Positions 1 through 28,775 of a DNA stretch of 64,000 nt are shown here, one piece after another. The notes under the pieces are model-generated. The model was not told where the DNA came from, did no database searches, and was given only the letters and a program-made list of their open reading frames with translations. Made by a program: the position numbers and the translations under genes. This stretch comes from Variovorax paradoxus (GTDB lineage: Bacteria > Pseudomonadota > Gammaproteobacteria > Burkholderiales > Burkholderiaceae_C), in assembly GCF_024734665.1 (NCBI RefSeq), contig NZ_CP102931.1, forward strand, positions 1 through 64,000, in the 5' to 3' direction. Numbering within the stretch: the stretch's first letter is position 1; each line of letters opens with the position of its first letter.

Positions 1-101
1 CCGATGAACTCCCGAGAATTTTCAATCGGACTGACACGCGGCACTGCCACGATGAACGGGTTGACTGCCTTTGATGTTCTTCGTTGTTCTTGGAGTGGAA
101 G

Positions 102-551: not shown

Positions 552-604
552 CGCCGGTGGCTGCCGTGGGCGGATCGGTGCGAATCAGGACAGGCCGTGC
601 GCCG

Positions 605-7410: not shown

Positions 7411-7420
7411 GAGGCGCGAA

Positions 7421-8848: not shown

Positions 8849-10057
8849 ATGCGTGCAATGTTCAAGCCGGTCGCCATGGCGACCGTGATGGTGGCGGGTC
8901 TTCTGGCTGCTGGTGCAGCCTCAGCTCAAATCGCGGTGGGTGGTGGTGCGACCCTGCCGGAAGTGCTTTACGACCAGATCCTGCCCAGCGGCGTCGGCAA
9001 CCTGAACTACAGCTACACCGGCACCGGCAGCGGCGGCGGCAAGACTGCGTTCATCAACAACAACGCCACCGCGTTCAAGAACGAATCGGTGACCGGCACG
9101 CCGGCATGGGGCGCCTCGCAGTCCGTGCACTTCGCCGGCAGCGATTCCGCCCTGTCGACGACCGAACTGGCGAACTACAACAGCGCGCACCTCTCGGCCT
9201 GGGGGCGCCTGATCCAGATCCCGTTCGCAGGCACCGCCGTGCTCGTGCCCTTCAAGCGCACCGGCGTGACCGCACTGAACCTGACGAATGCCCAGATGTG
9301 CGCCATCTACGGCAACAAGACCGGCGGCCAGACCTGGGGCCAGGTGCTCGGCACTAGCGACACCACGCCAGTCAGCGTGGCATATCGCGGCGAGAGCAGC
9401 GGTACCACGGAACTGCTGGCCCGCTACCTGGTGGCTGCCTGCAACCCGTCCGGCTCCAACTTCGCAGTGTCGAGCACCTTCACCGCGGTCGTCGCCGGTG
9501 AAGTCGGCACGATCCCGGCCAACTGGCAATCCGTCACCGGCAGCAGCGGCATGGCTGCTGCGATGGCTGTGGACGGCCGCATCGGCTACCTGAGCCCCGA
9601 TTCGGTCTACAACCCGGGCGCCACCACGCTGATCTCGAAGATCAACGGCTTCCTGCCAGTCGACACCTCGATCCGCGCAGCGCTCGCCACGCAAGCCCTG
9701 CCGACCGCCGGCACGACGGCCGCCAACAACCCGCTGTCGTGGGTGCCGCCCTATGTGCTGTCGAGCACGCAGTACCCGATCTTCGGCACGACCAACCTGA
9801 TCGTGAACCAGTGCTACAAGGATCCGGTGATCACGCAGCGCATCAAGGACGTCGTGACCAACCTGACCGGCACTGCATACGACGCCGCGATCACGGCTCA
9901 CCAGATGGTCAATCTGCCCGCTCCGCTGCCGCTGCCGAACCCCGGTGGCAACAACTGGAAGCAGAAGATCGTCGACAGCTTCCTGACCTCGACCAGCTCG
10001 CTGGCCATCGGCAACCCCAACGTCTGCAACACCGTCGGCCGTCCGCTGACGAACTGA
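8849..10057 (+). CDS. Secreted PstS-like phosphate-binding protein, probable T2SS cargo
   Basis: This is a periplasmic-binding-fold protein of the PstS-like family. The 402-residue product has a signal peptide ending ASA-QIAVG, then GGGATLPEVLYDQI (compare GAGATFPAPLY of PstS) and ligand-loop motifs GTGSGGGKTAF and YRGESSGTTELL. Four Cys in the mature part could form disulfides. ATG 8849 follows AAAGGAG by 7 bases. No pstCAB transporter genes are nearby; instead it lies directly behind gspF and before the VreARI-like operon. In P. aeruginosa the Hxc T2SS exports phosphate-related proteins, so a role as exported phosphate scavenger or cargo is inferred. An alternative is an ordinary periplasmic binding protein. 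Confidence 0.82.
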   Translation: MRAMFKPVAMATVMVAGLLAAGAASAQIAVGGGATLPEVLYDQILPSGVGNLNYSYTGTGSGGGKTAFINNNATAFKNESVTGTPAWGASQSVHFAGSDSALSTTELANYNSAHLSAWGRLIQIPFAGTAVLVPFKRTGVTALNLTNAQMCAIYGNKTGGQTWGQVLGTSDTTPVSVAYRGESSGTTELLARYLVAACNPSGSNFAVSSTFTAVVAGEVGTIPANWQSVTGSSGMAAAMAVDGRIGYLSPDSVYNPGATTLISKINGFLPVDTSIRAALATQALPTAGTTAANNPLSWVPPYVLSSTQYPIFGTTNLIVNQCYKDPVITQRIKDVVTNLTGTAYDAAITAHQMVNLPAPLPLPNPGGNNWKQKIVDSFLTSTSSLAIGNPNVCNTVGRPLTN

Positions 10058-10116
10058 TCGCGCGTCGGTTCGCCACTTGCGACCGGACTGCCCACCGCGG
10101 CAGCCCGGTCGCCCAG

Positions 10117-10177
10117 GCAGCCCCGAGGACGACGACCGCGCCCAAGCGTGGTCCGAGCCCTCGGGGCTTCTGCCTGT
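10117..10177 (+). terminator. Hairpin terminator after the phosphate-binding protein
   Basis: GGCAGCCCCGAGG (10117-10129) pairs with CCTCGGGGCT plus TCTGCC (10159-10174), giving a long GC-rich stem. There is no clean T run, so it may be a weaker or 3'-stabilising hairpin. Confidence 0.55.
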
Positions 10178-10219
10178 GCATGCGAGCCGCGATCCTGCAG
10201 TGTCAATGCCAGTTTGCAA

Positions 10220-10253
10220 ATGTCATGGGAACGTCACTACCACTCGCTAACGT
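10220..10253 (+). promoter_or_regulatory. Candidate PhoB box and -10 element before the STN/sigma/FecR operon
   Basis: ATGTCAT (10220-10226), four bases GGGA, then ACGTCAC (10231-10237) reproduce the 11-bp-spaced direct repeat of the Pho box (CTGTCAT-N4-CTGTCAT), with TGTCA/CGTCA cores intact. A TAACGT hexamer at 10248-10253 lies about 10 bases downstream, where Pho promoters carry their -10. The ATG of the first gene is 75 bases further on. The match is by eye; a footprint has not been seen. Confidence 0.5.
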
Positions 10254-10327
10254 AGTCCACGGTCTGTCGGGGCGGCTTCGGTCGTCCGGCAGATGCGGCA
10301 ACTCTGTGGCCTGTGCGCCTACCCGGT

Positions 10328-11101
10328 ATGACAGCGAAATCGACATCGGTCAGTGTGCTGACACTGGCCTGGTGTCTGGCCGGATTGGCCACGTTGCCCG
10401 ATCCGCGCGGCGCGCAAGCACAGCCGGCGCGTTCGGCATCCATAACAACAACAGCGACGGCGGCATCGTCCGCCGTACAGATCGAATTCGACATTGCCGC
10501 GCAGAGGCTCGGCGATGCCATCGATGTCTACAGCCGTCTCACGGGGCTCGACGTTCTGCTCGACGGCGAGCAGGCGCAGCGCCCGGCGAATGCAGTGCTC
10601 GGCACCTTCACCGCGCTGCAGGCCCTCGAGACGATGCTGGCCGGCACGGGGTTGGAGGCGCGTTATGCGACGGCATCGTCGGTGGTGATCCGGGCCGCAC
10701 GTGCGTCCGGCACTGCTGCAGCAACGCCGGGGGGCGATGCGTCGGCGTACGAGGAATCGGGTTTTCAGGGAGGAGAAGTCTTGCACCAGTCCTATGCAGC
10801 CCAGGTACAGCAGGCCCTGCGCGCTTCGCTGTGCGATGCGGCCGAAACGCGCCCGGGCGGCTATCGCCTCGCGCTGCAGCTGCGACTGGACGGGCACGGC
10901 ATGGCGGAGCGCTTTCGCCTGCTGAGCACGACCGGCAAGACCAGCCGCGATGCCGCGGTGCTGCGCAAAGTGCGCACGCTTTCGGTAGGCAGCCCGCCGC
11001 CGCCGTCGTTGCCGCAACCGCTCGTGATTCTGCTTCTGCCGGAGGGCCCGGACACGGAGCCGGCCTGCCCGCCGCTGGGCGCGATCGGACGTGCGCCATG
11101 A
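10328..11101 (+). CDS. VreA-like periplasmic signalling protein (STN domain plus TonB C-terminal-like domain)
   Basis: The 257-residue product begins with a probable signal peptide (to about residue 32, GAQAQ). Residues 51-123 form an STN domain (FDIAAQRLGDAIDVYSRLTG...ALQALETMLAGTGL), as found at the N-terminus of signalling TonB-dependent receptors. Residues about 155-238 resemble a TonB/TolA C-terminal domain (RLALQLRLDGHG...AVLRKVRTL...PLVILLLPEG). No receptor barrel is present. The same size and layout is known for P. aeruginosa VreA, which signals to the FecR-like VreR. The stop overlaps the sigma gene by 4 bases. No clear ribosome site precedes ATG 10328; an in-frame GTG at 10313 is possible. 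Confidence 0.78.
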   Translation: MTAKSTSVSVLTLAWCLAGLATLPDPRGAQAQPARSASITTTATAASSAVQIEFDIAAQRLGDAIDVYSRLTGLDVLLDGEQAQRPANAVLGTFTALQALETMLAGTGLEARYATASSVVIRAARASGTAAATPGGDASAYEESGFQGGEVLHQSYAAQVQQALRASLCDAAETRPGGYRLALQLRLDGHGMAERFRLLSTTGKTSRDAAVLRKVRTLSVGSPPPPSLPQPLVILLLPEGPDTEPACPPLGAIGRAP

Positions 11102-11679
11102 ACGAAGGGCAGAGCCTCTCGGCCAGCCTTCGTGCGCGCGTGGTCGCACGCTATGCCGAGCTGCGCGGCAAGCTGGAGCGCATCGTCGGTTCGCGCGATG
11201 ACGCGGCCGACGCGATGCAGGAGACCTGGCTGCGCTTGGCAACCTCCGCGGGCGAAGCGAACGCGCCGAACGCGATGAATGCGAACGTGGTGCACAACCC
11301 CGATGCCTATCTGCTGCGCATGGCCGCCAACATCGCCGTCGACCGCTACCGGCAGGACAACGCGCTGCTGGTGCGCGGCGAGATCGATGCGCTGGTGCAC
11401 ATCGTCGACGAGACGGCCGACCCCGAGCGCATTGCGAGCGCACGCAGCGACGTCGACGCATTGAGCCACGTGCTCGCACGCATGCCCGCGCGGCGCCGCG
11501 CCATCCTGGTGGCGGCGCGGGTGGACGGGCGGCTCAACAGCGAGATCGCGCAGCACATGGGCGTGTCGCTGAGCACCGTCGAGAAAGAGCTGCGCGCCGC
11601 GCTCGAATACTGCAAGAAGCATCTGCCGCATGTGGAGGCGGCCCAGCGTGGACACTTCAGCGGCCCGAGAAGATACTGA
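11098..11679 (+). CDS. ECF sigma factor, VreI/FecI-like
   Basis: The 193-residue product is an extracytoplasmic-function sigma factor. Region 2 is seen in YAELRGKLERIVGSRDDAADAM, with the WLRLAT and YLLRMAANIAVDRYR core-binding and -10 segments. Region 4 is the helix-turn-helix NSEIAQHMGVSLSTVEKEL. It should direct RNA polymerase to cell-surface-signalling promoters once released by the adjacent FecR-like protein. It is coupled to the STN gene (ATGA overlap) and to the regulator downstream (TGATG), giving the receptor-sigma-regulator order typical of VreA-I-R. A Pho-type promoter upstream suggests induction by phosphate limitation. Confidence 0.88.
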   Translation: MNEGQSLSASLRARVVARYAELRGKLERIVGSRDDAADAMQETWLRLATSAGEANAPNAMNANVVHNPDAYLLRMAANIAVDRYRQDNALLVRGEIDALVHIVDETADPERIASARSDVDALSHVLARMPARRRAILVAARVDGRLNSEIAQHMGVSLSTVEKELRAALEYCKKHLPHVEAAQRGHFSGPRRY

Positions 11680-12698
11680 TGAACGCCATGTCCCCTACGG
11701 AAACCGAGCTCGGCTCGCTGCAGCACCAGGCCCAGGCCTGGTGGATGCGCCTGCATTCGGGCGAAGCCACGCGCGCCGACGCCGATGCGTTCCGCCAGTG
11801 GGCAACGCGCAGTGCCGCGCACGCCCAGGCGTGGCGCGAAACCATGCGCGTGTGGTCGTCGCTCGATCCGCTGCTGGCCGAAGAGGCCGCGCGGCTGGCG
11901 CTGCCGGCGCGCAAGCCGGCGCGCCTTTTCTCATGGCAAGGCATGTCGCATGCGCTGCAATCGCCGGGGCGCCGTGCCTTCCTGGGGGGCGCGGTGGCGG
12001 CCTCGGTCACCGCGGGCGTGGTGGCGGTGTATCCGCCGCTCGGGCTGTGGCCTTCGGTGGAAGAGCTGGCCGCCGACTACCGCACGGGCACTGGCGAACA
12101 ACGGCAGCTCGCGCTGGGCCGGGATGTCAACGTGCAGATGAACACGCAGACCGTCATCAACCGGGTCGGCACGGGCGGTGGCGCTGGTGCGGAGACTGTC
12201 GGCCTGGAACTGGTGGCAGGCGAGGCCGAGATCGCGCTGGACGGCTCGGCCAGCTTCTTCGTCGATGCGGGCGGTGGGCGGCTGCAGGCGCGCGTTGCGC
12301 GCATCAACGTGCGCTACACCGGACCGCAGGTGTGCGTGACCTGCCTCGAAGGCCGCGTGACGGTGTCGGTGGCCGGACAGCGCCGGATGCTCGAGCAAGG
12401 CAGCCAGCTCTTCTACGACAAGTCCGGCATGCAGGAGCCGGTAGGGGCCGACTTGGCGGGAGTGGGCGCGTGGCGCACCGGCGTGCTGTCCTTCGACCGC
12501 ATGCAGCTCTCGGAGGTGATCGCCGAGATCAACCGCTATCGGCCGGGCAAGATCTTCCTGCGCAACGACGAACTGGGCCGCACGCAGGTGCGCATGCAGA
12601 TCGCGCTGCGCAGCATCGACAACGCGCCGGCGATGATCCACGAACTGTATGGCGCCCGCATGCGCAGCCTGCCGGGCGGCATCGTGGTGCTGAGTTGA
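11679..12698 (+). CDS. FecR/VreR-like transmembrane sigma regulator
   Basis: The 339-residue product has a cytoplasmic DUF4880 domain at about residues 12-58 (QAWWMRLHSGEATRADADAF...AHAQAW), a membrane segment around 100-119 (AFLGGAVAASVTAGVVAVYP), and a periplasmic FecR domain from about 133. The C-terminal part, YRPGKIFLRNDELG...MIHELYGARM, has the STN-interacting character of FecR proteins. It should hold the upstream sigma factor and release or activate it when the STN protein signals. The start overlaps the sigma stop. ATG 11688 is an alternative. Confidence 0.87.
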   Translation: MNAMSPTETELGSLQHQAQAWWMRLHSGEATRADADAFRQWATRSAAHAQAWRETMRVWSSLDPLLAEEAARLALPARKPARLFSWQGMSHALQSPGRRAFLGGAVAASVTAGVVAVYPPLGLWPSVEELAADYRTGTGEQRQLALGRDVNVQMNTQTVINRVGTGGGAGAETVGLELVAGEAEIALDGSASFFVDAGGGRLQARVARINVRYTGPQVCVTCLEGRVTVSVAGQRRMLEQGSQLFYDKSGMQEPVGADLAGVGAWRTGVLSFDRMQLSEVIAEINRYRPGKIFLRNDELGRTQVRMQIALRSIDNAPAMIHELYGARMRSLPGGIVVLS

Positions 12699-12760
12699 AG
12701 AAGCAGCGCGCGCCGGTTGCCTGCGTGCTGCGAGGCCCGAAGCTGCACCGCCTCGGCTTC

Positions 12761-12796
12761 AAATAATTTACGGGTTGTCGCGCGCAGGCTCGTCAT
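12761..12796 (+). promoter_or_regulatory. Candidate ECF (FecI-type) promoter before the DUF4880/exoprotein unit
   Basis: An AT-rich AAATAATTTA (12761-12770) leads into GGGTTGTCG (12772-12780), and CGTCAT follows at 12791-12796. A GGTT-type -35 with a CGTC -10 about 15 bases on is typical of FecI-group sigma promoters. It lies between the FecR-like gene and the DUF4880 gene, so the local sigma factor is the obvious user. The -10 is so close to ATG 12802 that translation would be nearly leaderless. Confidence 0.35.
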
Positions 12797-12801
12797 GGGG
12801 T

Positions 12802-13152
12802 ATGGAACCGACACCCCGTGACGATCGCCCCACCGCAGGACACGACGCCTGCCTCGGCGAAGCGTTCGACTGGCTCGTACGCCTGAACCGGCGCCGCGCC
12901 AGCGAGGCGGAGGCGTTCGCGTTGCAGGTCTGGTGCGGCCGCAGTGCCGTGCATGCACAGGCATGGCGCGAAGCCCTCGCGCTGTGGCGGGCCCTGTTGC
13001 CGGCCGCGTGCGCCGCGGCGCAGCGCGCGCCGCGAAGGCCACGCCGCGCAAGTGGCACGCGAACCGTTTCCCGCCGCGCCGCCGCCCCAGGGCGCGGCAC
13101 TTCTTCCGACGTCTTCCCTACGCAGCATCGCCCCGGGCAATCATGGTCCTGA
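12802..13152 (+). CDS. Stand-alone DUF4880 (FecR N-terminal) small protein
   Basis: The 116-residue product aligns by eye with the N-terminal domain of the neighbouring FecR-like protein: FDWLVRLNRRRASEAEAFAL...SAVHAQAWREALALWRAL against the matching part at residues 18-62 there. It then ends in a basic, Arg/Ala-rich tail with no membrane helix and no FecR domain. It could be a soluble sigma-binding decoy, or a degraded second FecR. Its stop lies inside the start of the giant exoprotein gene (10-base overlap with ATG 13143), suggesting coupling. A TTG at 12775 is an alternative start. Confidence 0.6.
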   Translation: MEPTPRDDRPTAGHDACLGEAFDWLVRLNRRRASEAEAFALQVWCGRSAVHAQAWREALALWRALLPAACAAAQRAPRRPRRASGTRTVSRRAAAPGRGTSSDVFPTQHRPGQSWS

Positions 13153-16100
13153 ATCCGCACTCCCTTCGTTCGCGTTCTTCTGCTGCGGGATCGCGCCGCG
13201 CACGCCGTCGCGGCCCGGGCGGAACGCCCTCTGCGGCAATTGCCCTTTTCGCCCCCCTCGACCCTCTTGCACGCGCTGTTGCGCTGCTGCTCGCTGCCTG
13301 CAGCGTGGCGGGCGGCAACGCCTATGCGCAGCAGCGCGCCTTCAGCGCCGGCTGGATGGCCCAGAAGAACATGGCGCAGAGCGAGGCCATGGCCACCGGC
13401 CGCCTGCCCAACGGCCTGCCCGCGTCCACGCTGACCAACCCTGCTGCGCAACAGCAGCAGGCCAGCCAGCAGTTGCAACGCTCGCTGGGCAATCTCAACA
13501 TCGCTGCCCAGGCCATCGCCGCCCAGCAAGCTGCCCAGGACGCGGCGCGGCGCGCCGCGCAGAGCGACCCGTCTTCGGTGCCCGACGGCCTGGCCGATGG
13601 CGGCCTGCGCGTCGACACCAACAGCCTCACCGCCGGCTGGCTCAACGCCAACGCCCCGCAGCAGTCGCAGCAGGCTGACGGGCGCACCAACGTCACCATC
13701 CAGCAGACCGGCGACCGCGCCATCCTCAACTGGGAAACCTTCAACGTCGGCAAGCGCACGACTGTCGACTTCAAGCAGCAGGCCGATTGGGCCGTGCTCA
13801 ACCGCGTCAACGACCCGCAGGCGCGTCCCAGCCAGATCCAGGGCCAGATCAAGGCCGATGGCACCGTGCTCATCGCCAACCGCAACGGCATCGTGTTCTC
13901 GGGCTCGGCGCAGGTCGACACCCGCAACCTCGTGGCCGCGGCCGCGAAGATCGGCGACGACCAGTTCAAGGCCCGCGGCATCTACAGCGCCCAGGAGAAC
14001 GGCGCCTACGTCCCCAGCTTCACCGATGCCGGCGGCGCGGTGAAGGTCGAGGCGGGTGCGCGCATCAACACCACCGCCCCCACCTCCGTCAAACAGGGCG
14101 GCGGCTATGCCTTGCTGCTTGGCAAGGAGGTGAACAACGCCGGCACCATCACCACCCCGCGCGGGCAGGTGCAGATGGCCGCCGGTGACTTCTTCATCGT
14201 GCGCGCCGGCCAAGGCACCGCCTCCAACCAGGCTTCCACCACGCGCGGCAACGAGGTCGCGCCCCAGTTCAACCCCGACAGCACGGCCGGCCAGGTAATC
14301 AACACTGGCGTGCTGCAGGCCCCCGAGGGCGACATCACGCTGGCGGGGCGCAAGGTGGTGCAGGACGGCGTCGCCGTCGCCACCACTACCGTGGACGCGC
14401 GCGGCACGATCCATCTGCTGAACTCGGCCGGCGACACGCGGGGCAGCGTCACCACCACCGCGCGGGCCGTGAACGCGGTGCTGATCGACGACCAGAACGG
14501 CCGTACTGCACTGAACAGCCAGCGCGATGCACTGATCGCCGAATCGGCCAGGCAGGACCTGGCCCGGCGCATTGCCGCGGCCGACGCTTTCGACAACCTC
14601 GCGCGCCTGGACGACCGGCGCGACCAGTCGCGCATCGAGATCGTCTCGGGCGGCAGCGTGCTGTTCGAGGGCGGCTCCACCACTCTGGCCACCGGCGGGC
14701 AGATCGCCGTGAGCGCGGGCGGCACCTCGGGCTCCGGCACCGGACGCAGCACCGTGGCCAATGGCGCGCGGCTGGACGTCTCCGGCGCCGTTGGCGTGCA
14801 GGTGGCCATGGCCTCCAACAACGTTCAGATCAACATCCAGGGCAACGAGCAGCGCGATGCGCCGCTGAACCGGGACACCACGATGCTGAACAACAGCAAC
14901 GTGTGGATCGACCGGCGCAAGCTGCTGCGCGTGGCCGCCGGCGTGGGCGGCTACGACACCGAGCGCTGGTACACCCCGGGTGGCCTGCTGGAGGTGGGCG
15001 GCTACCTGGGCCTGCAGGGCCACACCGCCGGCGAATGGGCCGCGCAGGGTGGCAGCGTGGTGTTCTCGGGTGCGGAGCTGGTCACGCAGACGGGCTCCAA
15101 CATCAACATCTCGGGCGGCACGCTGGACGTGCAGACCGGGATGATCCGCCAGAGTTGGCTCAAAGGTGCGGATGGGCGGCTGTACGAGGTGTCGAACGCG
15201 CCGGCGGACATTGTCTACACGGGGCTCTACAAGGGCTATGAAGACGCCCACAAGCGCTGGGGCGACAAGACCACCGGCTACTTCTACAACCCGCTGATCG
15301 GGCCGCAGCAGCGGATGGACAACGGCTACACCGTGGGTCGCGATGCGGGGCGACTGGTTGTGTCGACGCAGGCGGCGGTGCTGGAAGGCGACGTGACGGC
15401 CGTGGCGTACCAGGGACCGGGGCAGGCCACGAAGCGCGACGAGGGACTGGACGGCTACGCGCAGTCGCACAACGCGGCAGCGCTGGCGGGGCAACTGGTG
15501 CTGGGCAGCTATGCCACGGCATTCAACAACGACTCGAAGAACGGACCTACCGGCGTGTTCCACAACTTGGCGCCGACACTGGACCGCATCGTGTTCGGAA
15601 CCGACCAGCCTGACATGAGCGCGGGCCTGGCGCCTGGCGGGCCGCTGCCGCAAGCAAGCCGCGACGCGCTGTACATCGACAGCGAACGGCTGAACGGCTG
15701 GGGTCTGGGTGCGTTGCTCGCGGCGGGTAGGGACAACGTGACGGTGGATGGCGCGCTGTCGGTCGTTCCGGGCGGCAGCATTGCGCTGCATGCGCCGCAG
15801 GTGGACGTGAACGCGAACCTCTCGGCACGCGGCGGCAGCATTGCGCTGGGCAATGTGAGGACGCAGGTCGACAGCGCCACCGGCCGCGCGCTCGAAGGCG
15901 ACATGCCCGCCTTTGGCGACAAGCCGGTCAGGGTCGTCATCGCCAAGGATGCCGTGCTCGACGCGCGCGGCCTGTGGACCAATTTGCAGAGCGACCCGTC
16001 CGACATTCGCGGCCTGCCTTTTCTCGATGGCGGCCGGGTCGACATCCGCACCACCGGCGACCTGAGCTTGCAGGCGGGCACGGCGATCGATGTGTCGTCG

Positions 16101-19100: not shown

Positions 19101-22100
19101 GGCGATGCCGGCCTGCCAGCCACCGCCGTCGGCAACGGCACCTACGTGGCGGCCGGCTACCTCGGCGTGGCCAATACCTCGATCCGGGAGGCGATGCCGA
19201 ACCGCATCGTCGTCACGCCGGCCAACAAGGTGCGCACCTACGCGAGCTACAACGAGACCGACTACAACAGCTTCGTGCTGGCCGATGCGGCGCGGTACGG
19301 CTTCATGCGCGGCATGCTGACCTCGGACGCGAAGTCGCTCGACATCTTCCTGGACAAGCCGAAGAGCGACGACGCCGTGCGCACGGGGCTCACGTTCAAT
19401 GGCGAGGCCCGGCTCGCGGCCGAGGCCGGTACGCAGGGCTTCGGTGGAACTGTCAGCGTGAGCAACCTCAGCGAGGTGCTGGCCGAGGGCCAGCCCGCAA
19501 CCGCTGACCTGCCAGGAGCTTCCGTGCACGACGCGGAGCTGAACCGTCTCGCCGCGCCGCGGCTGATGCTGAATGGCCGCATCGTGACCACCTACGGGCA
19601 GCGCGGCCGCATCGCCGACATCCAGGGCGAAGGCGCCCTGACAGTGCGCAGCGGTGCCCGACTCTCGGCTTCCGACATCGTCCTCGTGGGCAACTCGCTC
19701 ACGATCGAGGAAGGCGCATCGTTGAGCACCATCGGCCGGGGCCGTGCGAGCTTCGATTCGAGCGACGGATACCTGTTCCAGGGCAGCGGCGTGCTCGCCC
19801 TGTCCAACGGTTGGTTCAACCTGCAGCTTGCGGTGCCGAGCAACGGCGTGGCCGGCAACGGCGCCATCGACATCGGCCGGTGCGTGAGCGCGTCCTGCAG
19901 CGGCACGACCACGCTGCTGTCGGAGGGCACGATCGCCGTCGCCACCGACGGCACGCTGACGCTGGCCGACAACGTCTCGTACGGCACGCGCAATCTCGTG
20001 CTGGCGCTCGCCGCGGTCAATTTCGGCGAGGACGCGAGCATTGCCGCCGCAAGCGCCGCGGGGCACCTGCCGCGTGGCCTGGAGCTCAACCAGGCGCGGC
20101 TCGACCGGCTGCTGGCCGGCAACACCGCCACCGGCGCGCCAGCGCTGGAGACGCTCGTGCTCAACGCGCGCGATGCGGTGAACATCTTCGGCGCAGTGGA
20201 CCTCGACGCCTCACGCCTCGACCGTCTCATGCTCGGCACGCCGGCGATCTATGGCTACGGGGCGGCAGGCGATGTCGCCGCGATCCGCGCCGGCGAATTC
20301 GTCTGGACCGGCACCGAGGCCGTACCCGGCGCGCCGATGGGCGACCTCCTGGGTGCCGGCACGCTCGACATTTCGGCGCGCTCCATCGTGCTGGGCCAAG
20401 GGCCGAATTCGAAGCCGGACAACGCCATTCCCGACGCACGGCTCGCGCTGGGTTTTTCGGATGTGCGGCTCAACGCCAGCGAGAAGGTCACCTCGAATGG
20501 CAAGGGCACGCTGGCCGTGTTCGAACGGCAGGGGGCCTACACCCCCGGCGAGGGCTATGCCCGCGAGGGCGGTAACCTGCACATCGGCACGCCGCTGCTC
20601 ACCGGAGACGCGGCTTCCACGATGCGCATCGAGGCCGGTGGCGCCATCGACATCGCCGCCGCGTCGCAGGGCGCTGCAGCCTCCGGCGACGCGCTGGGCG
20701 CCACGCTGGAACTGAAGGGCCGGCGCATCGACGTCGACGGCAACGTGGTGCTGCCTTCGGGCCGGCTGGTGCTGTCGGCCACGGAGGACATCGTGCTGGG
20801 CGCGGCCTCGCGCATCGATCTCTCCGGCCGCAAGGTCGCGCTGTTCGACGTCGACAAGTACAGCTGGGGCGGCGACCTCGTGTTGTCGAGCGCCGCGGGC
20901 AACATCGTGCAGGCGGCGGGCGGCGTGATCGACGTCTCGGCGGTCAACGAGCGCGCCGGCACGGTGGAGGCGAGCGCGCTTGGCGCCGGCGCCGGCCGTG
21001 TCGATCTCGGCGGCGAACTGCGCGGCAGCAGCAGCGGCCGCTACGACGCCGGCGGCACGCTCGTCCCCTACGGCGCGGGCGAGCTGACCGTGCGGGCGCA
21101 GACCGTGGCCGACTTCGCGGGTCTCAACCAACGCCTCAATGCGGGCAGCGTGTTCGGCGCGCGCCGTTTCCAGATCAAGCAGGGCGACCTGACGGTGGGC
21201 GACGGCGTGAAGGCGCGCGAGGTGACGATCGTGCTCGACGGCGGCAGCCTGCGCGTGGACGGCCGGATCGACGCGAGCGGCGAGCAGGTCGGCACGATCC
21301 GGCTCGCCGCCCGGGGCGACCTGCGCGTGGACGGCACGCTGGACGCGCACGCCACGGGGCTGCGCGTGGACAGCTACGGCAAGATCATCGACAGCCCCAA
21401 CCGTGCCATCGTCGATCTGACCAGCCGCGACGGCATGCTCACGCTAGGCAGCAACGCGCGCATCGACCTGCGTGCCGGCACCGACGTGCCCATGGGTAGC
21501 GGCCCCGGCCTCAACGACGGCCGCGCGCGCGGCACGCTCGACCTCAATGCCCGGCGTACCGGCGGCGGTGGCGCGGGCGGCAGCGGAACCGGCGCGAACG
21601 ATGTCGCGCTCACGGTCGAGGGCCGGCCGCTCATCCAGGGTGCGAAGACCATCGCCGTCAATGCCTTCCGCAGCTACGACGACGCGCCGCTGGCCGGGCT
21701 GCCCGACGTTTCGGGCTATCAGCCGCAGCTCATCACGCAGGCCTATCTCGATGGCATCGACGTCGAAAGCGGCGCGTTCGTCGACGCGGCGCTGGCCAAC
21801 ACCGCACTCACTTCCCGCCTCGCGGGCCTCGATGGCTGGCGCCTGCGCCCGGGCGTCGAGATCGTGAGCAACGCCAGCATCAATCCGAACGGCACCCTCA
21901 CGGTCCTGGGCGACATCGATCTCTCGGGCTACCGCTACGGCCCGGATGCCAACCGTGCCGACCCCGCGCGGCGCGGCTTCGGCGAGCCGGGCGTGCTGTC
22001 GATCCGCGCCGCTGGCGACCTGAACATCCACGGCAGCATCAACGACGGCTTCGCGCCGCCCGCGGCCACGCCCGACGACAAGGGATGGGTGCTCGCCGAG

Positions 22101-25100
22101 ACGACCGACAGCTTCGGCAGGACCGGCCCCACGCCCTTCGGCGCCGATGTGGTCGTGCCAATCGATGGCGTGATGCTCGACACCGGCACGCGTTTCCCCG
22201 CCGGCGCGAAGCTCAACTACGCCATTCCCATCGCCGGGGCGAGGCTGCCGGCAGGCACCGTGCTGCCGGTGGATGCGGTGCTCGCGGGCGCGCTGAACCT
22301 GCCTGCGGGCACGGTGGTGGGCGCCAATGTCTACAACGCCGACGGTTCGATTGCCTACAGCGCAGGCTCCGTGCTGGCGGCGGGTGTATCGCTCCAGGCC
22401 GGCATGCGGCTCGGTGCGGGCACGACGCTGCGCGCCGAGGCGGCGGTGGGTGCGCTGACCTGGCCCAAGGGCGTGGCGCTGCCGGTCGCCATGAGCCTTG
22501 CCAATCCGCTGCAACTGGCGCGCGGGTCGTTGATCCCGTCGATGACGCTGCTCGAACTGCCGGGCGACCAGCCGATCAACCTGCGGCCCGAATCGAATGG
22601 CGTGCAGGGCCGCAACTGGGCGGTCGCGCCGATGCTCGGCGAGGGCGCCACTTCGTGGGACGTGCAGCTGGTGGCCGGGGCCGACATGGGCTCGGCCGAC
22701 CGGCGCGCGGTCAATCCTTTGTCGAAGGCCGCGATCAGGCTGGCCGATTCGCATCAGCTGTCGACGTTCACCACGGGGATCGTCGGCGGAGGAGGCAAGG
22801 TCTGGGCGAAGGACAACTGGTTCGGCTACGACGAAGGCACGCCGGTCGATCCGTCGGAGCTGTTCTGGTGCGACCTCGAGCCCAGCCTGTGCAACGACAG
22901 TGGTGGCCAGCCCGGCATCACCGGCAGCAAGCCCGCTGCCTCCGCGCCCAGCGTGGTGCGCACCGGCACCGGCGACCTGGAGCTGGTGGCCGCGGGCGAT
23001 ATCCGCACCGACTCGCTGTTCGGCATCTACACCGCCGGCACCTCGACCGCGGTCGACGCGGCGTACAACCAGCCGCGCGCAAGGGATGCGGACGGCAGCG
23101 TGCTGGGCGCGTATTCGCCGCTGATCGACTACGGCAGCAGCCTGGCAACCTACCGCGCCTGGTACCCCGACCAGGGCGGCAACGTGCTGATTGCCGCCGG
23201 CGGCAACCTCGTCGGCGACATCGCGGGCTCGCAGGCCTCGAGCGTGCTGCCGGGAAGCTGGCTCTGGCGCCAGGGCTCGGGCACTGCGGCGATCGACACG
23301 CCGATCCCGACGTCGTGGTGGATCAACTTCGGCACCTACACGCGAGCCGCCGACGGCGGCATCGACAGCGCGCCGCCACTGGTCGGCTTCACCGGCATCG
23401 GTGCGCTCGGCGGCGGCGACATCCGGATTCGCGTGGGAGGCGATGCGGGCGCGATCGGCTTGCGCGGCAGCCAGAGTTCCGGAACGAATACCGCGCAGGA
23501 TCGCAGCGAAGGCCTAGTGATCGCGGTCGGCAGCACCGGCCGCGTGGCGGCCGACGGCACGCTTGCATTGACGGGCGGCGGCGACATCGACATGCGCGTG
23601 GCCGGCGCGCTCAACCCGCAGCGCGGCCTCAGCGGCGGGCGCGAGAAGCAGGTGCTGACAGGCGCCATCGCCAATCTGCGGGGCCAGACGCAAGTCGGCG
23701 CCGCATCGATCGGCAGTCTCGGCCTGCAGTCCGACACCATCATGGCCAACGACATCGTCGATCCGCGCGGCAAGGATCCCTTCGCGGCGACCACCGCGGA
23801 CGCACGCGGCGGCATCAATCTCGTGCCCGGCGACACGGCGATGTACCTCGATGCCCGCGGCGACCTGGTGCTCGGCAATGCCGCCGATCCGGGCCGTGGC
23901 GCGATCGCCAACAGCTCGGCCTACGCTGTTGGCGGTGCTTCCTACAACGGAGGTGGCAACGGATGGTTCACGCTCTGGACCGATCGCAGCGCGATCAACC
24001 TGGCGGCCGCTGGCGGCAACCTGACGCCGACTTCGTTGCGCAGCGCCCTGGACGGCCGCGTCCAGACCTCGTCGGAAGACGGGTGGATCGTCTATCCGTC
24101 GATCTTCCGTGCCGCCGCGCTGTCGGGCAGCCTCTACTATGGCTACGCAACGCTGACTTCGGCGACCCGGAACCCCGAGCTCCTGGCCGCCAGCCTCACG
24201 CTCGCGCCTTCACCGACGGGCGACCTGCAGCTGCTCGCGCGGGATTCGATCTACGCGGGGCTCTACGGGATCAGCAGGTCGGGCGCCGACGCCGCTGCCT
24301 TGCCGACGCCGTTCCGTCCTGCGTTCGTGGGGCTGCCCTACGACAGTTCGGGGATCGTGGTCACCAACGCAGCCGCGGACGGCCATGCGCTGGGATTCGG
24401 CACAGCCTTCAACCGGACGATCTTCGCCTTTGGGCCGAACACGGTGTCGTCGTCATTGGCCAATGCGGCAGGCGCGTCGCCGATCCGCTTCTATGCGGCC
24501 GAGGGCGACATCATCGGGTTGAAGACGGGCGAGACCGTCACGCTCTTCAACAGCAGCGGGACCTTGTACAACGCTGCGGCGCCGGTCCGGATCAAGGCGG
24601 GGCGCGACATCGTCAACACCGGCGATGCACCGGGCGTGAGCAACATCGGCGCCATCGAAGGCTCCTCCGTTCGCGGCAACCTGGTCGTGCACGGCAACCC
24701 CGACGACGTATCGATCGTCTCCGCCGGCCGCGACATCCTCTACGCGAACTTCGACGTCGGCGGCCCCGGCACGCTGGAGGTCACGGCCGGGCGCAACCTG
24801 CTGCAGGAAGATCGCGGCGGCATCACCTCGGCGGGCCCCGTCGTGCCGGGCGACACCCGGCCGGGCGCTTCCGTCGCGCTGATGGCGGGCGTCGGCGCTT
24901 CGGCCGCCAATGCCGGGCTGGACATGTCGGCAATCCGCGCGCGCTATCTCGATCCGTCGAGACTCGCCGATGCCGCGACGCCGCTGGCCGGCCAGCCGGG
25001 CAAGGCCGCCAAGACCTACGAAGCGGAACTCGCCGCATGGCTGAAGGCGCGCTACGGCTTTGCAGGCGGCAGCGCCGCCGAGGCCCTGGCGTACTTCGAC

Positions 25101-26156
25101 GCGCTGGCGCCGGAGCAGCAGCGCATCTTCCTGCGCGAGGTCTACTACGCCGAGCTGCGCGAAGGCGGCCGCGAGTACAACAACCCCGCCAGCAGCCGTT
25201 CGGGTTCGTACCTGCGCGGCCGCGAAATGATCGCCACGCTGTTCCCCGACCGTGACGCGGCCGGCAAGGAGATCGCGCGCAGCGGCGACATCACCATGTT
25301 CGGCGGCTCGGGCGTGCGCACCAATTTCGGCGGCGACATCGAGATGCTGGCGCCGGGCGGCAGGATCATCGTGGGCGTGCAGGGCGCCGTGCCGCCGGCC
25401 ACGTCGGGCGTCATGACGCAGGGCCAGGGCGACATCCGCCTCTTCAGCGAAGGCAGCCTGCTGCTGGGCCTGTCGCGCATCATGACGACCTTCGGCGGCG
25501 ACATCTTTGCCTGGTCCGAGAAGGGCGACATCAACGCGGGGCGCGGCTCGAAGACCACGGTGCTGTTCACGCCGCCGAAGCTGGTGTACGACAACCTGGG
25601 CAACGTCGAGATTTCCCCGCAGGCGCCGAGCTCGGGCGCGGGCATTGCCACACTGGCGCCGATCCCCGAGGTGCCGCCGGGCGACGTCGACCTGATCGCG
25701 CCGCTGGGCACCATCGATGCGGGCGAGGCTGGCATCCGGGTGTCAGGCAACGTCAATGTCGCGGCACAGCAGGTGGTGAACGCGGCCAACATCCAGGTCA
25801 AGGGCGAGTCGGCCGGCCTGCCGGTGGTGGCATCGGTGAACGTGGGTGCGCTCACCAACGCCAGTGCCGCGGCCTCGCAGGCAAGCGTGGCGGCGCAGGA
25901 CGCGATGCAGCGCGAGCGCGCGGCGGCGCGGCAGGCCCTGCCGTCGGTGTTCACGGTCCGGGTGCTGGGCTTCGGCAACGAGCCGGCAAGCGGCGGCAGC
26001 AACAACAGCAACAGCGATGTGCCCGACGGCAAGTCGGGCACACCGGTCAGCTACAACCCGCGCAGTGTGATCCGCGTGCTGGGTGGTGGCGGCAATCTGC
26101 CGCCGGCGGCGAGCCGGCAACTGACGGATGAGGAGCGCGCCAATCTGCAACGTTGA
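13143..26156 (+). CDS. Giant filamentous-haemagglutinin-like (TpsA, DUF3739-type) exoprotein
   Basis: The 4337-residue product has a long basic n-region, then a hydrophobic core and AYA-QQ cleavage near residue 63. A TPS secretion domain follows at about residues 155-330 (NVTIQQTGDRAILNWETFNV, ANRNGIVFSGSAQVDTRNLVA). Thousands of residues of beta-helix-like repeats come next, including an unusual PAGTxLP-rich segment at about 3017-3130. The C-terminal part (SGDITMFGGSGVRTNFGGDI, FGGDIFAWSEKGDINAGRGS) matches the DUF3739 type, known as the exoprotein family associated with VreARI. The only mature-region Cys I noticed form two close pairs (CVSASC; CDLEPSLC). No TpsB gene is in the window. No clear ribosome site precedes ATG 13143, so coupling to the overlapping DUF4880 gene is likely. 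Confidence 0.88.
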   Translation: MVLNPHSLRSRSSAAGSRRARRRGPGGTPSAAIALFAPLDPLARAVALLLAACSVAGGNAYAQQRAFSAGWMAQKNMAQSEAMATGRLPNGLPASTLTNPAAQQQQASQQLQRSLGNLNIAAQAIAAQQAAQDAARRAAQSDPSSVPDGLADGGLRVDTNSLTAGWLNANAPQQSQQADGRTNVTIQQTGDRAILNWETFNVGKRTTVDFKQQADWAVLNRVNDPQARPSQIQGQIKADGTVLIANRNGIVFSGSAQVDTRNLVAAAAKIGDDQFKARGIYSAQENGAYVPSFTDAGGAVKVEAGARINTTAPTSVKQGGGYALLLGKEVNNAGTITTPRGQVQMAAGDFFIVRAGQGTASNQASTTRGNEVAPQFNPDSTAGQVINTGVLQAPEGDITLAGRKVVQDGVAVATTTVDARGTIHLLNSAGDTRGSVTTTARAVNAVLIDDQNGRTALNSQRDALIAESARQDLARRIAAADAFDNLARLDDRRDQSRIEIVSGGSVLFEGGSTTLATGGQIAVSAGGTSGSGTGRSTVANGARLDVSGAVGVQVAMASNNVQINIQGNEQRDAPLNRDTTMLNNSNVWIDRRKLLRVAAGVGGYDTERWYTPGGLLEVGGYLGLQGHTAGEWAAQGGSVVFSGAELVTQTGSNINISGGTLDVQTGMIRQSWLKGADGRLYEVSNAPADIVYTGLYKGYEDAHKRWGDKTTGYFYNPLIGPQQRMDNGYTVGRDAGRLVVSTQAAVLEGDVTAVAYQGPGQATKRDEGLDGYAQSHNAAALAGQLVLGSYATAFNNDSKNGPTGVFHNLAPTLDRIVFGTDQPDMSAGLAPGGPLPQASRDALYIDSERLNGWGLGALLAAGRDNVTVDGALSVVPGGSIALHAPQVDVNANLSARGGSIALGNVRTQVDSATGRALEGDMPAFGDKPVRVVIAKDAVLDARGLWTNLQSDPSDIRGLPFLDGGRVDIRTTGDLSLQAGTAIDVSSGAAVLANGKTRGGRGGDVTLLADMQFAAPSTHGLLTIDGDIRGYGVNGGGTLRIASGTAIAVGGQTPGIDGTLGTGVSATTDLILLQDYQVRAGEVLPTDYRYERLRANPGEAIGTMPQFGAGIYALTLAADWTPPYATGSGGYRVSGTLNGVPMFFDVTSQGTRPTLPAGFIITSSFGAEAFPSSYVVPANVFPNGIMILPETVTVAAGNIAPADFTLTSGSRVAAGAVFNQPVTVRAGLSVDPSLLQSGFARYDINGRLGVVVADNAHLDVRMPVYRVADSARTFATGSDPREMLERWTPPLWAEDPRSGVLTQRGGASLVLQSTAGSGTALVAGGPVDVRSGAAIEVDPGQSITLLGRDVTVDGRLSAPSGTIAIDRPRNGTAGTPGLVWIGDSAVLDVAARAATARDTLGRLYGRVADGGTISIGGTLDWEKTGEASAAEAFIVVRPGALLDASGTSAMLDGGGRAASPIAVNSSGGSIILKSDHGLYLDGTLRAASGGEGAAGGTLALALESASYPTATTSGNLLRHRELVLAQTQGESPIAAAQGQSDAKKQLLTGSARIGVDRIEAGGFDNLSMLVHGPLSFDGDVSLHMGESLRLYAGSYAHGENAAAGSTVSLAAPYVRLAGVTRIPSGDGMTLPSAIWGKGPSQQSADGSFSVQADLIDVRDRVGFGVNADINLRSSSYTVGRRGFADIDIASSGDIRLLSGLPSRGLSGSVTTELATPGNLTLTAAQIYPATGASAAITAGYRLPDPVNSVSGYAPGSVLSIRRSGSGDVAMPDSVFGTLTLSAETVEQGGIVRAPLGRLTLGTEGSKPSLKTERVVLLPGSITSVSAAGLQMPYGGTVDGLSYLYAGKQVTPESFDSNLHGIGLSARHVNAQPGAVLDLSGGGTLSGAGFTAGRGGSVDILSTPLANANPANGYSSAGNAVYAIVPGSAARYAPVAPDSGFGAPGIGQQVTIPPGVPGLPAGTYTLMPSNYALMPGAFRVEIGAAGRPGDAGLPATAVGNGTYVAAGYLGVANTSIREAMPNRIVVTPANKVRTYASYNETDYNSFVLADAARYGFMRGMLTSDAKSLDIFLDKPKSDDAVRTGLTFNGEARLAAEAGTQGFGGTVSVSNLSEVLAEGQPATADLPGASVHDAELNRLAAPRLMLNGRIVTTYGQRGRIADIQGEGALTVRSGARLSASDIVLVGNSLTIEEGASLSTIGRGRASFDSSDGYLFQGSGVLALSNGWFNLQLAVPSNGVAGNGAIDIGRCVSASCSGTTTLLSEGTIAVATDGTLTLADNVSYGTRNLVLALAAVNFGEDASIAAASAAGHLPRGLELNQARLDRLLAGNTATGAPALETLVLNARDAVNIFGAVDLDASRLDRLMLGTPAIYGYGAAGDVAAIRAGEFVWTGTEAVPGAPMGDLLGAGTLDISARSIVLGQGPNSKPDNAIPDARLALGFSDVRLNASEKVTSNGKGTLAVFERQGAYTPGEGYAREGGNLHIGTPLLTGDAASTMRIEAGGAIDIAAASQGAAASGDALGATLELKGRRIDVDGNVVLPSGRLVLSATEDIVLGAASRIDLSGRKVALFDVDKYSWGGDLVLSSAAGNIVQAAGGVIDVSAVNERAGTVEASALGAGAGRVDLGGELRGSSSGRYDAGGTLVPYGAGELTVRAQTVADFAGLNQRLNAGSVFGARRFQIKQGDLTVGDGVKAREVTIVLDGGSLRVDGRIDASGEQVGTIRLAARGDLRVDGTLDAHATGLRVDSYGKIIDSPNRAIVDLTSRDGMLTLGSNARIDLRAGTDVPMGSGPGLNDGRARGTLDLNARRTGGGGAGGSGTGANDVALTVEGRPLIQGAKTIAVNAFRSYDDAPLAGLPDVSGYQPQLITQAYLDGIDVESGAFVDAALANTALTSRLAGLDGWRLRPGVEIVSNASINPNGTLTVLGDIDLSGYRYGPDANRADPARRGFGEPGVLSIRAAGDLNIHGSINDGFAPPAATPDDKGWVLAETTDSFGRTGPTPFGADVVVPIDGVMLDTGTRFPAGAKLNYAIPIAGARLPAGTVLPVDAVLAGALNLPAGTVVGANVYNADGSIAYSAGSVLAAGVSLQAGMRLGAGTTLRAEAAVGALTWPKGVALPVAMSLANPLQLARGSLIPSMTLLELPGDQPINLRPESNGVQGRNWAVAPMLGEGATSWDVQLVAGADMGSADRRAVNPLSKAAIRLADSHQLSTFTTGIVGGGGKVWAKDNWFGYDEGTPVDPSELFWCDLEPSLCNDSGGQPGITGSKPAASAPSVVRTGTGDLELVAAGDIRTDSLFGIYTAGTSTAVDAAYNQPRARDADGSVLGAYSPLIDYGSSLATYRAWYPDQGGNVLIAAGGNLVGDIAGSQASSVLPGSWLWRQGSGTAAIDTPIPTSWWINFGTYTRAADGGIDSAPPLVGFTGIGALGGGDIRIRVGGDAGAIGLRGSQSSGTNTAQDRSEGLVIAVGSTGRVAADGTLALTGGGDIDMRVAGALNPQRGLSGGREKQVLTGAIANLRGQTQVGAASIGSLGLQSDTIMANDIVDPRGKDPFAATTADARGGINLVPGDTAMYLDARGDLVLGNAADPGRGAIANSSAYAVGGASYNGGGNGWFTLWTDRSAINLAAAGGNLTPTSLRSALDGRVQTSSEDGWIVYPSIFRAAALSGSLYYGYATLTSATRNPELLAASLTLAPSPTGDLQLLARDSIYAGLYGISRSGADAAALPTPFRPAFVGLPYDSSGIVVTNAAADGHALGFGTAFNRTIFAFGPNTVSSSLANAAGASPIRFYAAEGDIIGLKTGETVTLFNSSGTLYNAAAPVRIKAGRDIVNTGDAPGVSNIGAIEGSSVRGNLVVHGNPDDVSIVSAGRDILYANFDVGGPGTLEVTAGRNLLQEDRGGITSAGPVVPGDTRPGASVALMAGVGASAANAGLDMSAIRARYLDPSRLADAATPLAGQPGKAAKTYEAELAAWLKARYGFAGGSAAEALAYFDALAPEQQRIFLREVYYAELREGGREYNNPASSRSGSYLRGREMIATLFPDRDAAGKEIARSGDITMFGGSGVRTNFGGDIEMLAPGGRIIVGVQGAVPPATSGVMTQGQGDIRLFSEGSLLLGLSRIMTTFGGDIFAWSEKGDINAGRGSKTTVLFTPPKLVYDNLGNVEISPQAPSSGAGIATLAPIPEVPPGDVDLIAPLGTIDAGEAGIRVSGNVNVAAQQVVNAANIQVKGESAGLPVVASVNVGALTNASAAASQASVAAQDAMQRERAAARQALPSVFTVRVLGFGNEPASGGSNNSNSDVPDGKSGTPVSYNPRSVIRVLGGGGNLPPAASRQLTDEERANLQR

Positions 26157-26166
26157 CCTGCGCTCC

Positions 26167-26196
26167 GCGCCCGCGGCGGGCGCACCTGGTTTTTCT
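26167..26196 (+). terminator. Possible terminator after the giant exoprotein gene
   Basis: GCGCCCG (26167-26173) pairs with CGGGCGC (26177-26183) around a 3-base loop, followed after ACCTGG by TTTTTC. The gap between stem and T run makes it weak. Confidence 0.4.
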
Positions 26197-26276
26197 TACC
26201 TTGATTCAAGGCTCGACCATTCCCGCGGCCGGAGATCCCGGCCGGTGGACTGGGCGGGCGTTCAGCGAAGCCCATC

Positions 26277-26891
26277 ATGACTCCAGACTCCCAGGCCATA
26301 GGCCGTGCGCCGGACCGGTTCTCCATGCTGTTCCAACCCGGCTGGCAACTGCGCGACGAATGCATTGTCATGCCGGTGCCGGAAGTGCGCGCGCCGAAGC
26401 CGGCCGAGCCCGCCGTCGACCTGCAGGCACACCTGGCGACGCACTACGCGCAGTTGCACCGGCGCCTCGAGCGGCATCTCGGATGCGCGGACTTCGCCCG
26501 CGAGTGCCTGCACGATGCCTGGCTGCGCCTGGGCGAACGGCAGCCGCAGGAAGCGCCGGCGAACCCCGACGCTTATGTCTACCGCGTGGCCTGCAATCTC
26601 GCGATGGACAGCCTGCGTTCGCTCAAGCGCTGGCCGGGATCGAACAGCGACGAGGGCGCCGATCCGGACGTCATCGCCGACCTGCAGCCCGGCCCCGAGC
26701 TGATCGCCGAGGCGCGCTCCGAGGTGGCTGCCGTGGACCGCGCCATGCAGAGCCTGCCGCGCGGCCATCGCTCGGTGCTGCTGGCGCTGCGCTGGCACGA
26801 AATGTCGCGCCAGGAAGTGGCCAGGCGCCACGGTGTTTCGGTGCGCAGGGTGGACACCACGCTCAGGCAGGCCCTTGGCGTATTGCGTTGA
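26277..26891 (+). CDS. Second (orphan) ECF sigma factor
   Basis: The 204-residue product carries sigma region 2 (YAQLHRRLERHLGCADFAREC, AYVYRVACNLAMDSLRSLKR) and a region 4 helix-turn-helix (SRQEVARRHGVSVRRVDTTL). It has about 40 extra N-terminal residues; ATG 26370 is a possible later start giving a more usual length. No FecR-like regulator or receptor gene adjoins it. It may be controlled by the stand-alone DUF4880 protein upstream of the exoprotein. Its position just after the exoprotein suggests it acts in the same regulon. Confidence 0.8.
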   Translation: MTPDSQAIGRAPDRFSMLFQPGWQLRDECIVMPVPEVRAPKPAEPAVDLQAHLATHYAQLHRRLERHLGCADFARECLHDAWLRLGERQPQEAPANPDAYVYRVACNLAMDSLRSLKRWPGSNSDEGADPDVIADLQPGPELIAEARSEVAAVDRAMQSLPRGHRSVLLALRWHEMSRQEVARRHGVSVRRVDTTLRQALGVLR

Positions 26892-28080: not shown

Positions 28081-28265
28081 CGGTATTTCCCATTCGGTTG
28101 CCGCTGCTGCGGGCGTTGGAAGCCCTGTCTATCACGCGGCCGTTGGGGTTTGATGTCAGTGGCTTCGCGCTGCCGCGCCGGGGCGGTGTTTTCATTCCGG
28201 CATCACATGCGCTGCCTAGCATTGGGCAGGGCTTTTCAATCGATCAACCAACCGGGCGCAGCAAG

Positions 28266-28772: not shown

Positions 28773-28775
28773 TCC

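Follow-up and report, generated by a model that had tools for sequence, protein, structure and literature searches.

A probable PUMA3-class signalling island in Variovorax with genes for a predicted stand-alone anti-sigma domain and a second sigma factor

We analysed the first 64,000 bases (positions 1-64,000; the window) of contig NZ_CP102931.1 of Variovorax paradoxus, a single contig of 7,294,742 bases that carries the whole Variovorax genome (G000 C1 in our records). The window holds an island in which the genes for a VreA-type signalling protein, an extracytoplasmic function (ECF) sigma factor and a VreR-type anti-sigma factor (together VreARI) stand among genes of a type II secretion system (T2SS) and next to the gene for a giant exoprotein with a DUF3739 domain. 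The island probably represents the PUMA3 (VreA/VreI/VreR) class in Variovorax and would work as a whole by the steps proposed below. To what is known of PUMA3 the analysis adds a gene for a stand-alone anti-sigma domain, here called mini, a second sigma gene, ECF2, and genome-wide evidence on Pho-type promoters. The central features are the following.

8849..10057, + strand: DING-like phosphate-binding protein (PF12849, PBP_like_2, 1.6e-18; Protein Data Bank (PDB) sequences 2q9t/4f18, ~1e-63)
10220..10253, + strand: predicted PhoB-type promoter of vreAIR, ATGTCAT-GGGA-ACGTCAC, 10 bp, TAACGT (sequence pattern)
10313..11101, + strand: VreA-type protein with STN signalling and TolA/TonB-like domains and no barrel (Pfam and fold model)
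11098..11679, + strand: ECF1, VreI-type sigma factor (Sigma70_r2 and r4_2 in frame 9739-11679)
11679..12698, + strand: VreR-type anti-sigma factor with DUF4880, hydrophobic segment and FecR (profiles, hydropathy)
12802..13152, + strand: mini, predicted stand-alone cytoplasmic anti-sigma domain, 116 aa (DUF4880 6.9e-8, in the longer frame 12775-13152)
13143..26156, + strand: giant TpsA-type exoprotein, 4337 aa (two-partner secretion (TPS) domain PF05860 3.8e-27; DUF3739 PF12545 1.3e-41)
26277..26891, + strand: ECF2, second sigma factor (sigma profile match)
26991..27617, + strand: Phd-like/DUF772, PhdA-like protein (PF05598 2.9e-7; phd_fam 0.0025 and IS1182 6.8e-7, both below cut-off)

The vreA operon and the PUMA3 class

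Profile searches and reading frames in the window recovered every feature that an earlier note on this DNA had described, namely T2SS, PstS-like, STN, ECF sigma, FecR-like, 4337-residue TPS and second sigma genes in one block on the + strand. That note had overlooked the DUF4880-only gene at 12802-13152, GspG/K/L/M, GspC/H/I/J and the Phd-like/DUF772 gene at 26991-27617. The ends of vreA, ECF1 and vreR overlap (10313-11101, 11098-11679 and 11679-12698), and from these overlaps the three genes are predicted to form a single operon. VreA has 262 aa, with matches to STN (4.6e-5) and TonB_2 (0.0013) that both lie under the Pfam cut-offs. Its structural model, built with 12 sequences (mean predicted local distance difference test score (pLDDT) 75; predicted template modelling score (pTM) 0.42, so that the relative placement of the domains is not given by the model), has one part that resembles the PupB, FpvA and FecA signalling domains and a second half that resembles the C-terminal domain of TolA, and has no barrel. 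The assignment of the STN protein to the VreA type therefore holds at the level of profile and fold, and the result that the earlier note had named as refuting, a placement outside this type, did not occur; VreA of P. aeruginosa has the same two-domain make-up (PMC2729926; this and the other papers cited below are used in part).

To place the island among related loci, the neighbourhoods of DUF3739 genes were surveyed. Of 100 genomes sampled from the genus, 24 contain DUF3739, with up to 6 matches each; in the class sample it is present in 24/369 genomes and in the order sample in 46/399. For Variovorax there were 75 DUF3739 rows, two of which overlap in G007; 50 of the 75 were fetched, the window's own being among the unfetched, and 48 loci from outside Variovorax were fetched from the class and order samples. 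Ten of the 50 Variovorax loci and the window have the order GspF-DING-VreA-ECF1-VreR-mini-exoprotein-ECF2-PhdA-GspC (type C); not included in this count are the tail of another type C locus (L164) and a type C copy with broken frames (G007:C144, L166). Type B loci, with a second sigma gene directly downstream and no mini, account for 17 of the 50 (in L089 and L094 in broken frames), and type A loci, with neither mini nor second sigma, for 23, of which some are truncated where the contig ends. In Azoarcus the order is T2SS-DING-PhdA-VreA-ECF-VreR-exoprotein-ECF2-TpsB, without mini. Outside Variovorax, the fetched stretches of 45/48 DUF3739 loci contain no VreA/VreR match, the exceptions being L277, L279 and the locus of G749, and a TpsB and/or ExbB-type gene adjoins DUF3739 in most of the 48. 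T2SS and VreA genes occur together in the 11 Variovorax type C loci and in Azoarcus.

The gene set of the island corresponds in its main components, on profile and frame evidence, to the PUMA3 regulon of P. aeruginosa, PA0674-PA0701 (PMC2729926, PMC7035377, PMC4971064), as had been proposed. Common to both are a barrel-less VreA, a sigma factor and a FecR-like VreR in one operon with a Pho box before vreA, as well as a T2SS, a LapA/DING-like protein, TpsA/TpsB, a Phd-like protein, ExbB-ExbD-TonB, a porin and a peptidyl-prolyl isomerase (PPIase). The Variovorax island differs in gene order and has mini after vreR and ECF2 after tpsA, two genes that the parts of these papers used do not mention. 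The view of the island as a beta-proteobacterial counterpart of PUMA3 stands as far as its class is concerned; its novelty does not, because PUMA3 homologues of Burkholderia vietnamiensis (with hxc-like and tpsA-like genes) and PUMA3-TPS clusters of Janthinobacterium and R. palustris were printed in 2009 (PMC2729926), which makes the Variovorax island a further case of a known locus type. These clusters share with it VreARI with a tpsA-like gene, tpsB with exbBD and, in B. vietnamiensis, hxc-like genes; those of Janthinobacterium and R. palustris consist of repeated units, and for none of the three does the part of that paper used mention a DUF4880-only gene or a second sigma factor. The hxc-psp-pflu2428 locus of P. 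fluorescens SBW25 likewise has a T2SS cluster, then a DING gene and then a gene for a 4083-aa haemagglutination-domain protein; it differs from the Variovorax locus in the N-terminus of the DING protein (DINGGG in place of VGGGATLP), and VreARI is not mentioned for SBW25 in the part of the paper used (PMC2225411).

The predicted PhoB-type promoter and the reach of phosphate control

A predicted PhoB-type promoter precedes vreA. Amid hardly alignable DNA, each of the 10 type C loci aligned keeps a block upstream of this gene, which consists of two half-sites 11 bp apart, 10 bp and a TAACGT-like box. The exact site at 10220-10253 is the sole one in the 64-kb window, and the pattern GTCAYN6GTCAYN10TANNNT has five sites in the whole genome compared with 0 for the reversed pattern. 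The five sites precede vreA, pstS, the divergent ppx, a glycerophosphodiester phosphodiesterase (GDPD) gene and an alkaline-phosphatase gene, so that the cis evidence groups vreAIR with textbook phosphate genes of its own genome. Since the type C alignment and the promoters of pstS and ppx had been viewed before the pattern was chosen, they do not test it independently, in contrast to most of the type A and type B loci and the sites at the GDPD and alkaline-phosphatase genes. Upstream of vreA it was found in 9/9 type C, 7/11 type B and 8/19 type A windows (shuffled vreA windows: mean 0.02-0.05 positives per set, maximum 2), and also at the vreA frame start in L277 and L279, from two further genomes of the Burkholderiales. 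The GDPD and alkaline-phosphatase genes (G000:C1:2408325 and 5543300), which share this promoter type, encode lipoprotein-like N-termini.

We propose that under phosphate starvation PhoB would become active and turn on vreA-vreI-vreR from the predicted promoter at 10220-10253. Periplasmic VreA, through its cell-surface signalling (CSS) and TolA/TonB-like domains, would then relay a signal to VreR, and VreI (ECF1) would be freed, as the fold of VreA and the P. aeruginosa system suggest. Together with PhoB, VreI would transcribe the genes for the T2SS and its DING-like substrate, TpsA(DUF3739)/TpsB, ExbBD-TonB, the porin and the PPIase, by analogy with P. aeruginosa. mini, a free peptide with pro- or anti-sigma action, would most likely bind VreI, and ECF2 would most likely extend the response or feed back on it. 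The vreA promoter of P. aeruginosa is bound by PhoB, which is also required, together with VreI, at pdtA and phdA (PMC4971064), and the inducing signal of VreR in this species is called still unknown (PMC7035377). As a soil genus that has the same parts, two additional regulators and a Pho promoter that can be read, Variovorax offers a clean place to probe that signal.

Several observations weigh against phosphate control of this form. The uniqueness of the shorter pattern GTCAYN6GTCAY is weak (24/100 window shuffles hold at least one match), the consensus score of the vreA box is moderate (11/14, reached by 9/200 shuffles), the full pattern is absent from 11/19 type A and 4/11 type B vreA windows, and no match is listed in the fetched stretch L307 of G749. 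The strict pattern GTCAYN6GTCAY, which would miss degenerate boxes, was found before none of the DING (0/15 windows), tpsB (0/8) and phdA (0/13) genes, in 1/46 tpsA windows, there without a -10 box, and nowhere in L002, the far-end stretch of the contig that contains the DNA before tpsB and gspG. In the windows examined, no strict Pho box was found at phdA and no full one at tpsA, whereas the pdtA and phdA promoters of P. aeruginosa do have a Pho box (PMC4971064). Moreover, hxcR of P. fluorescens SBW25 is not induced by phosphate (Pi) limitation (PMC2225411). The phosphate-sensing switch of the earlier note survives in part: the predicted PhoB-type promoter before vreA is the phosphate input seen here, and VreA itself as the sensor of phosphate finds no support. 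On the Pho boxes and on SBW25 hxcR, the further claim that one switch governs both the T2SS and the exoprotein is unsupported; a single switch driving both secretion systems would have to be inferred from P. aeruginosa.

The same findings fit another explanation, in which these genes are neighbours and not one regulon, VreARI governing the TPS exoprotein alone and the T2SS and DING-like genes following their own signals. In addition to the SBW25 result and the lack of strict Pho boxes before DING and tpsB, it draws on the absence of a Gsp match from 28/40 Variovorax stretches and on the locus of G334 described next. Against it stand the rise of hxc genes on overexpression of VreI in P. aeruginosa (PMC2729926) and the order T2SS-DING-VreARI-DUF3739, which is shared by 11 Variovorax loci and found in altered form in Azoarcus, and we consider it unlikely. 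The G334 locus (L122, C85:9670-29602) carries GspE-GspF, two DING-like genes and DUF3739, and neither VreARI nor TpsB lies within the 20 kb examined; because of this locus the link between T2SS, DING-like protein and exoprotein may be older than VreARI.

A similar question arises for the Pho boxes. Half-site pairs of the Pho type were seen before tpsB or exbB in seven loci without VreARI (L128, L133, L136, L137, L138, L285, L293). In the class sample, 5 of 52 windows at tpsB, DUF3739, exbB and exbD starts hold such a pair, 2 of them with a -10 box (shuffles: mean 0.07, maximum 2); in the order loci L285 and L293 the sites precede tpsB and, in L293, also stand at the exbB frame start (these two without shuffle control). 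Because these boxes lie in loci without VreARI, phosphate control of the DUF3739 exoprotein module may predate VreARI, judging from sequence patterns.

mini, a predicted stand-alone anti-sigma domain, and ECF2

The gene for mini ends within the start of the exoprotein gene, which reads from the ATG at 13143, with an overlap of 10 bases (ATGGTCCTGA). All 11 aligned mini sequences end in SWS because of this overlap. mini lacks a transmembrane segment, its hydropathy over 19 residues peaking at 0.99, compared with 1.81 for VreR. Its model (pLDDT 75, pTM 0.51) matches the cytoplasmic domain of PupR (5cos/5cam) at ranks 1-6 with probability 1.00 and TMt 0.79-0.92, with E values of only 0.036-0.17, which points to a predicted three-helix anti-sigma domain of the FecR/PupR type. 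The 11 Variovorax sequences share 33 invariant columns and are variable in the C-terminal half; they form a clade of their own (100/99), and the median ratio of nonsynonymous to synonymous substitutions (dN/dS) is 0.39 (55 pairs), compared with 0.38 for VreA and 0.29 for VreR. In the gap between vreR and mini of type C loci (window 12651-12830) there is a conserved block (TTTACGGGT ... CGTCAT), a candidate promoter of mini and tpsA.

Of 300 genomes in the order sample, 6 matched mini at 1e-5, mostly within longer FecR-type frames, and the stand-alone form besides the window's own was that of G749 (E 6.8e-7). In the family of G749 (f212), 52/249 genomes have a mini match, and 30 loci, fewer than the total matches, were examined. 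Among the matches listed, 17 of the 30 have a stand-alone DUF4880 frame, with VreR directly upstream in 16 of the 17; L327 has no VreR match. Twelve of the remaining 13 read VreA-sigma-VreR-TPS with nothing mini-like between. In a VreR tree of 80 rows, from which VreR pieces under 240 aa and one G749 duplicate were omitted, the VreR that are accompanied by mini form two clades (100/100 each), one of the 16 sequences from f212 and one of the 10 from Variovorax, which are sisters with weak support only (86/41); the 13 sequences from f212 that lack mini are spread over three other positions. This placement indicates that mini tracks VreR lineages and not species.

An explanation of mini as a decaying VreR fragment, or as a leader open reading frame that couples translation to the exoprotein, would suit its short length, its overlap with the exoprotein start and its variable C-terminal half. 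The copy of a 12th Variovorax genome, G007, counts in the same direction: its match spans two overlapping frames, and it therefore looks broken. We regard this explanation as very improbable, since mini is intact in 11/11 aligned type C rows with the invariant columns and the VreA-like dN/dS given above, forms its own clade and is not a recent VreR copy, and also follows vreR in a second family.

ECF2 and ECF1 share 33% identity across 162 aligned columns, and the median dN/dS of ECF2 is 0.31. A single clade of 23 rows (100/100) comprises the downstream sigma factors of type B and type C loci, apart from the upstream sigma factors. As mini and ECF2 flank the exoprotein gene in 11/11 type C loci, they might be a sigma/anti-sigma pair of their own, with mini retaining ECF2 until the 13-kb message of the exoprotein has been completed. 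In 17/50 Variovorax loci and in Azoarcus, ECF2 is present without mini; conversely, mini occurs in G749 with no ECF2 seen in the ~40 kb examined and stands directly after vreR in 16/17 f212 loci. A separate pair is for these reasons rather doubtful, and mini as an obligate partner of ECF2 was set aside, each being found without the other. We favour mini as a peptide that would act on VreI, and ECF2 as a sigma factor that would extend the response or feed back on it.

Both proposed roles fit published precedents by analogy. Free N-terminal fragments of FecR-type regulators activate (FecR, FoxR1-93, FiuR1-91) or inhibit (the 67-residue FpvR fragment) FecI-type sigma factors; they represent the same domain as mini and are cleavage products or laboratory constructs, whereas mini is gene-encoded. 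FpvR serves two sigma factors, FpvI and PvdS, just as one CSS regulator is accompanied by two ECF sigma factors here (PMC9249621). No published mention of mini, ECF2, the Variovorax system or DUF3739 was found in a search that most subscription papers lie outside. If the proposed role of mini is true, a free anti-sigma domain encoded by its own gene opens the question of pro- versus anti-sigma action without protease steps.

Taken together, the data allow a joint reading that we put forward tentatively. One Burkholderiales PUMA3 lineage would have a four-gene switch, vreA-vreI-vreR-mini, with the free anti- or pro-sigma domain encoded by a gene; in Variovorax (and in Azoarcus, without mini) ECF2 after the exoprotein gene would report completion of the message to transcription, and the DUF3739 module would have come under phosphate control before VreARI.

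Secretion genes, the DING-like protein and the contig seam

The T2SS is fuller than the earlier note said, with GspG, K, L, M, D, E and F at bases 84-8626 and GspC, H, I and J at 27628-29840.

84..551, + strand: GspG major pseudopilin (PF08334 8.9e-41; TIGR01710 6.4e-57)
590..1582, + strand: GspK (NF037980 2.7e-66; frame 71-1582, match from residue 182, start approximate)
1561..2790, + strand: GspL (TIGR01709 5.2e-38)
2790..3374, + strand: GspM (PF04612 1.2e-14; frame 2331-3374, match residues 168-333, start approximate)
3400..5956, + strand: GspD secretin (TIGR02517 3e-182; frame 2846-5956, start approximate)
5953..7410, + strand: GspE ATPase (TIGR02533 2.6e-205)
7421..8626, + strand: GspF (TIGR02120 2.9e-145)
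27628..28080, - strand: GspC-like protein (PF11356 4e-9)
28266..28772, + strand: GspH-type pseudopilin (N_methyl 6.5e-7; frame 27906-28772, start approximate; named by place and conservation in relatives)
28776..29150, + strand: GspI (PF02501 2e-13; TIGR01707 1.5e-17)
29151..29840, + strand: GspJ (TIGR01711 1.5e-12 and T2SSJ 6.6e-4, both below cut-off)

An Hxc-type T2SS is told by subfamily phylogeny and a lipoprotein secretin. The T2SS of the island is called Hxc-like here by its gene company only.

The product of 8849-10057 has its best PDB sequence matches in the DING protein 2q9t (1e-63) and the putative alkaline phosphatase 4f18. In total, seven PDB sequences match it with E values from 1e-63 to 1.4e-52, all described as DING, HPBP, alkaline phosphatase or phosphate-binding protein. 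The genome holds a separate PstS above the PstS cut-off, and this product lies below it. The DING matches and the separate PstS mark the protein as DING-like and not as the PstS of an ABC transporter. Its mature N-terminus reads VGGGATLP (AQIAVGGGATLP in the translation) instead of DINGGG, and for this reason it is named DING-like and not DING. LapA/LapB of P. aeruginosa have the N-terminus VTGGG, and the DING protein of SBW25 is Pi-regulated and secreted mainly through Hxc (PMC2225411). The DING-like protein is likely a substrate of the T2SS.

The last ~10 kb of the same contig contain, according to profile searches, genes for TpsB (ShlB 2.1e-23 and POTRA_2), an ExbB fusion, ExbD, a TonB-like protein, a porin (Porin_5 6.4e-193) and a PPIase. 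In G016 (L157), tpsB-exbB-exbD-tonB-porin-PPIase genes run straight into gspG-K-L-D-E-F on one contig, and in G490 (L264) the far-end gene set is likewise continuous with gspG. The contig seam therefore cuts one island, and a seam at the border of two unrelated loci was rejected on the same two cases. With its TPS domain and a TpsB partner (ShlB and POTRA_2) across the seam, the exoprotein qualifies as TpsA. Gene order varies, L162 having tpsB-exbB after gspJ. Two Variovorax records, G000 C1 and G014 C2 (L100, L160), start and end inside this island at different points, by chance or by assembly habit. The ExbB of the far-end stretch (L002, 11560-13374) forms a fusion protein with DUF2341 and a Laminin_G_3/ConA-like domain, and relatives of this DUF2341/lectin-like/ExbB fusion adjoin DUF3739 genes in many fetched loci. 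Hits of two query frames near L002 14283-17158 were left out of the counts.

The DUF772 match of the gene at 26991-27617 raised the possibility of an insertion sequence remnant. This was rejected, as the gene is kept in type C relatives and in Azoarcus and has a weak N-terminal Phd-like match; it is called PhdA-like by its domain content, and it is broken in L095. The exoprotein or neighbouring frames are broken in L089, L093, L094, L095, L097 and L166, and the pieces were read separately. DUF3739 units are multiple, and some stand directly before another VreARI unit (L085/L111, L112, L313, L315, L152). Elsewhere in the window, at 35669-39159, a gene for a Fis-type regulator (GAF, HTH_8) lies head to head with a gene for a pyrroloquinoline quinone (PQQ) dehydrogenase bearing a cytochrome c domain, an ordinary arrangement.

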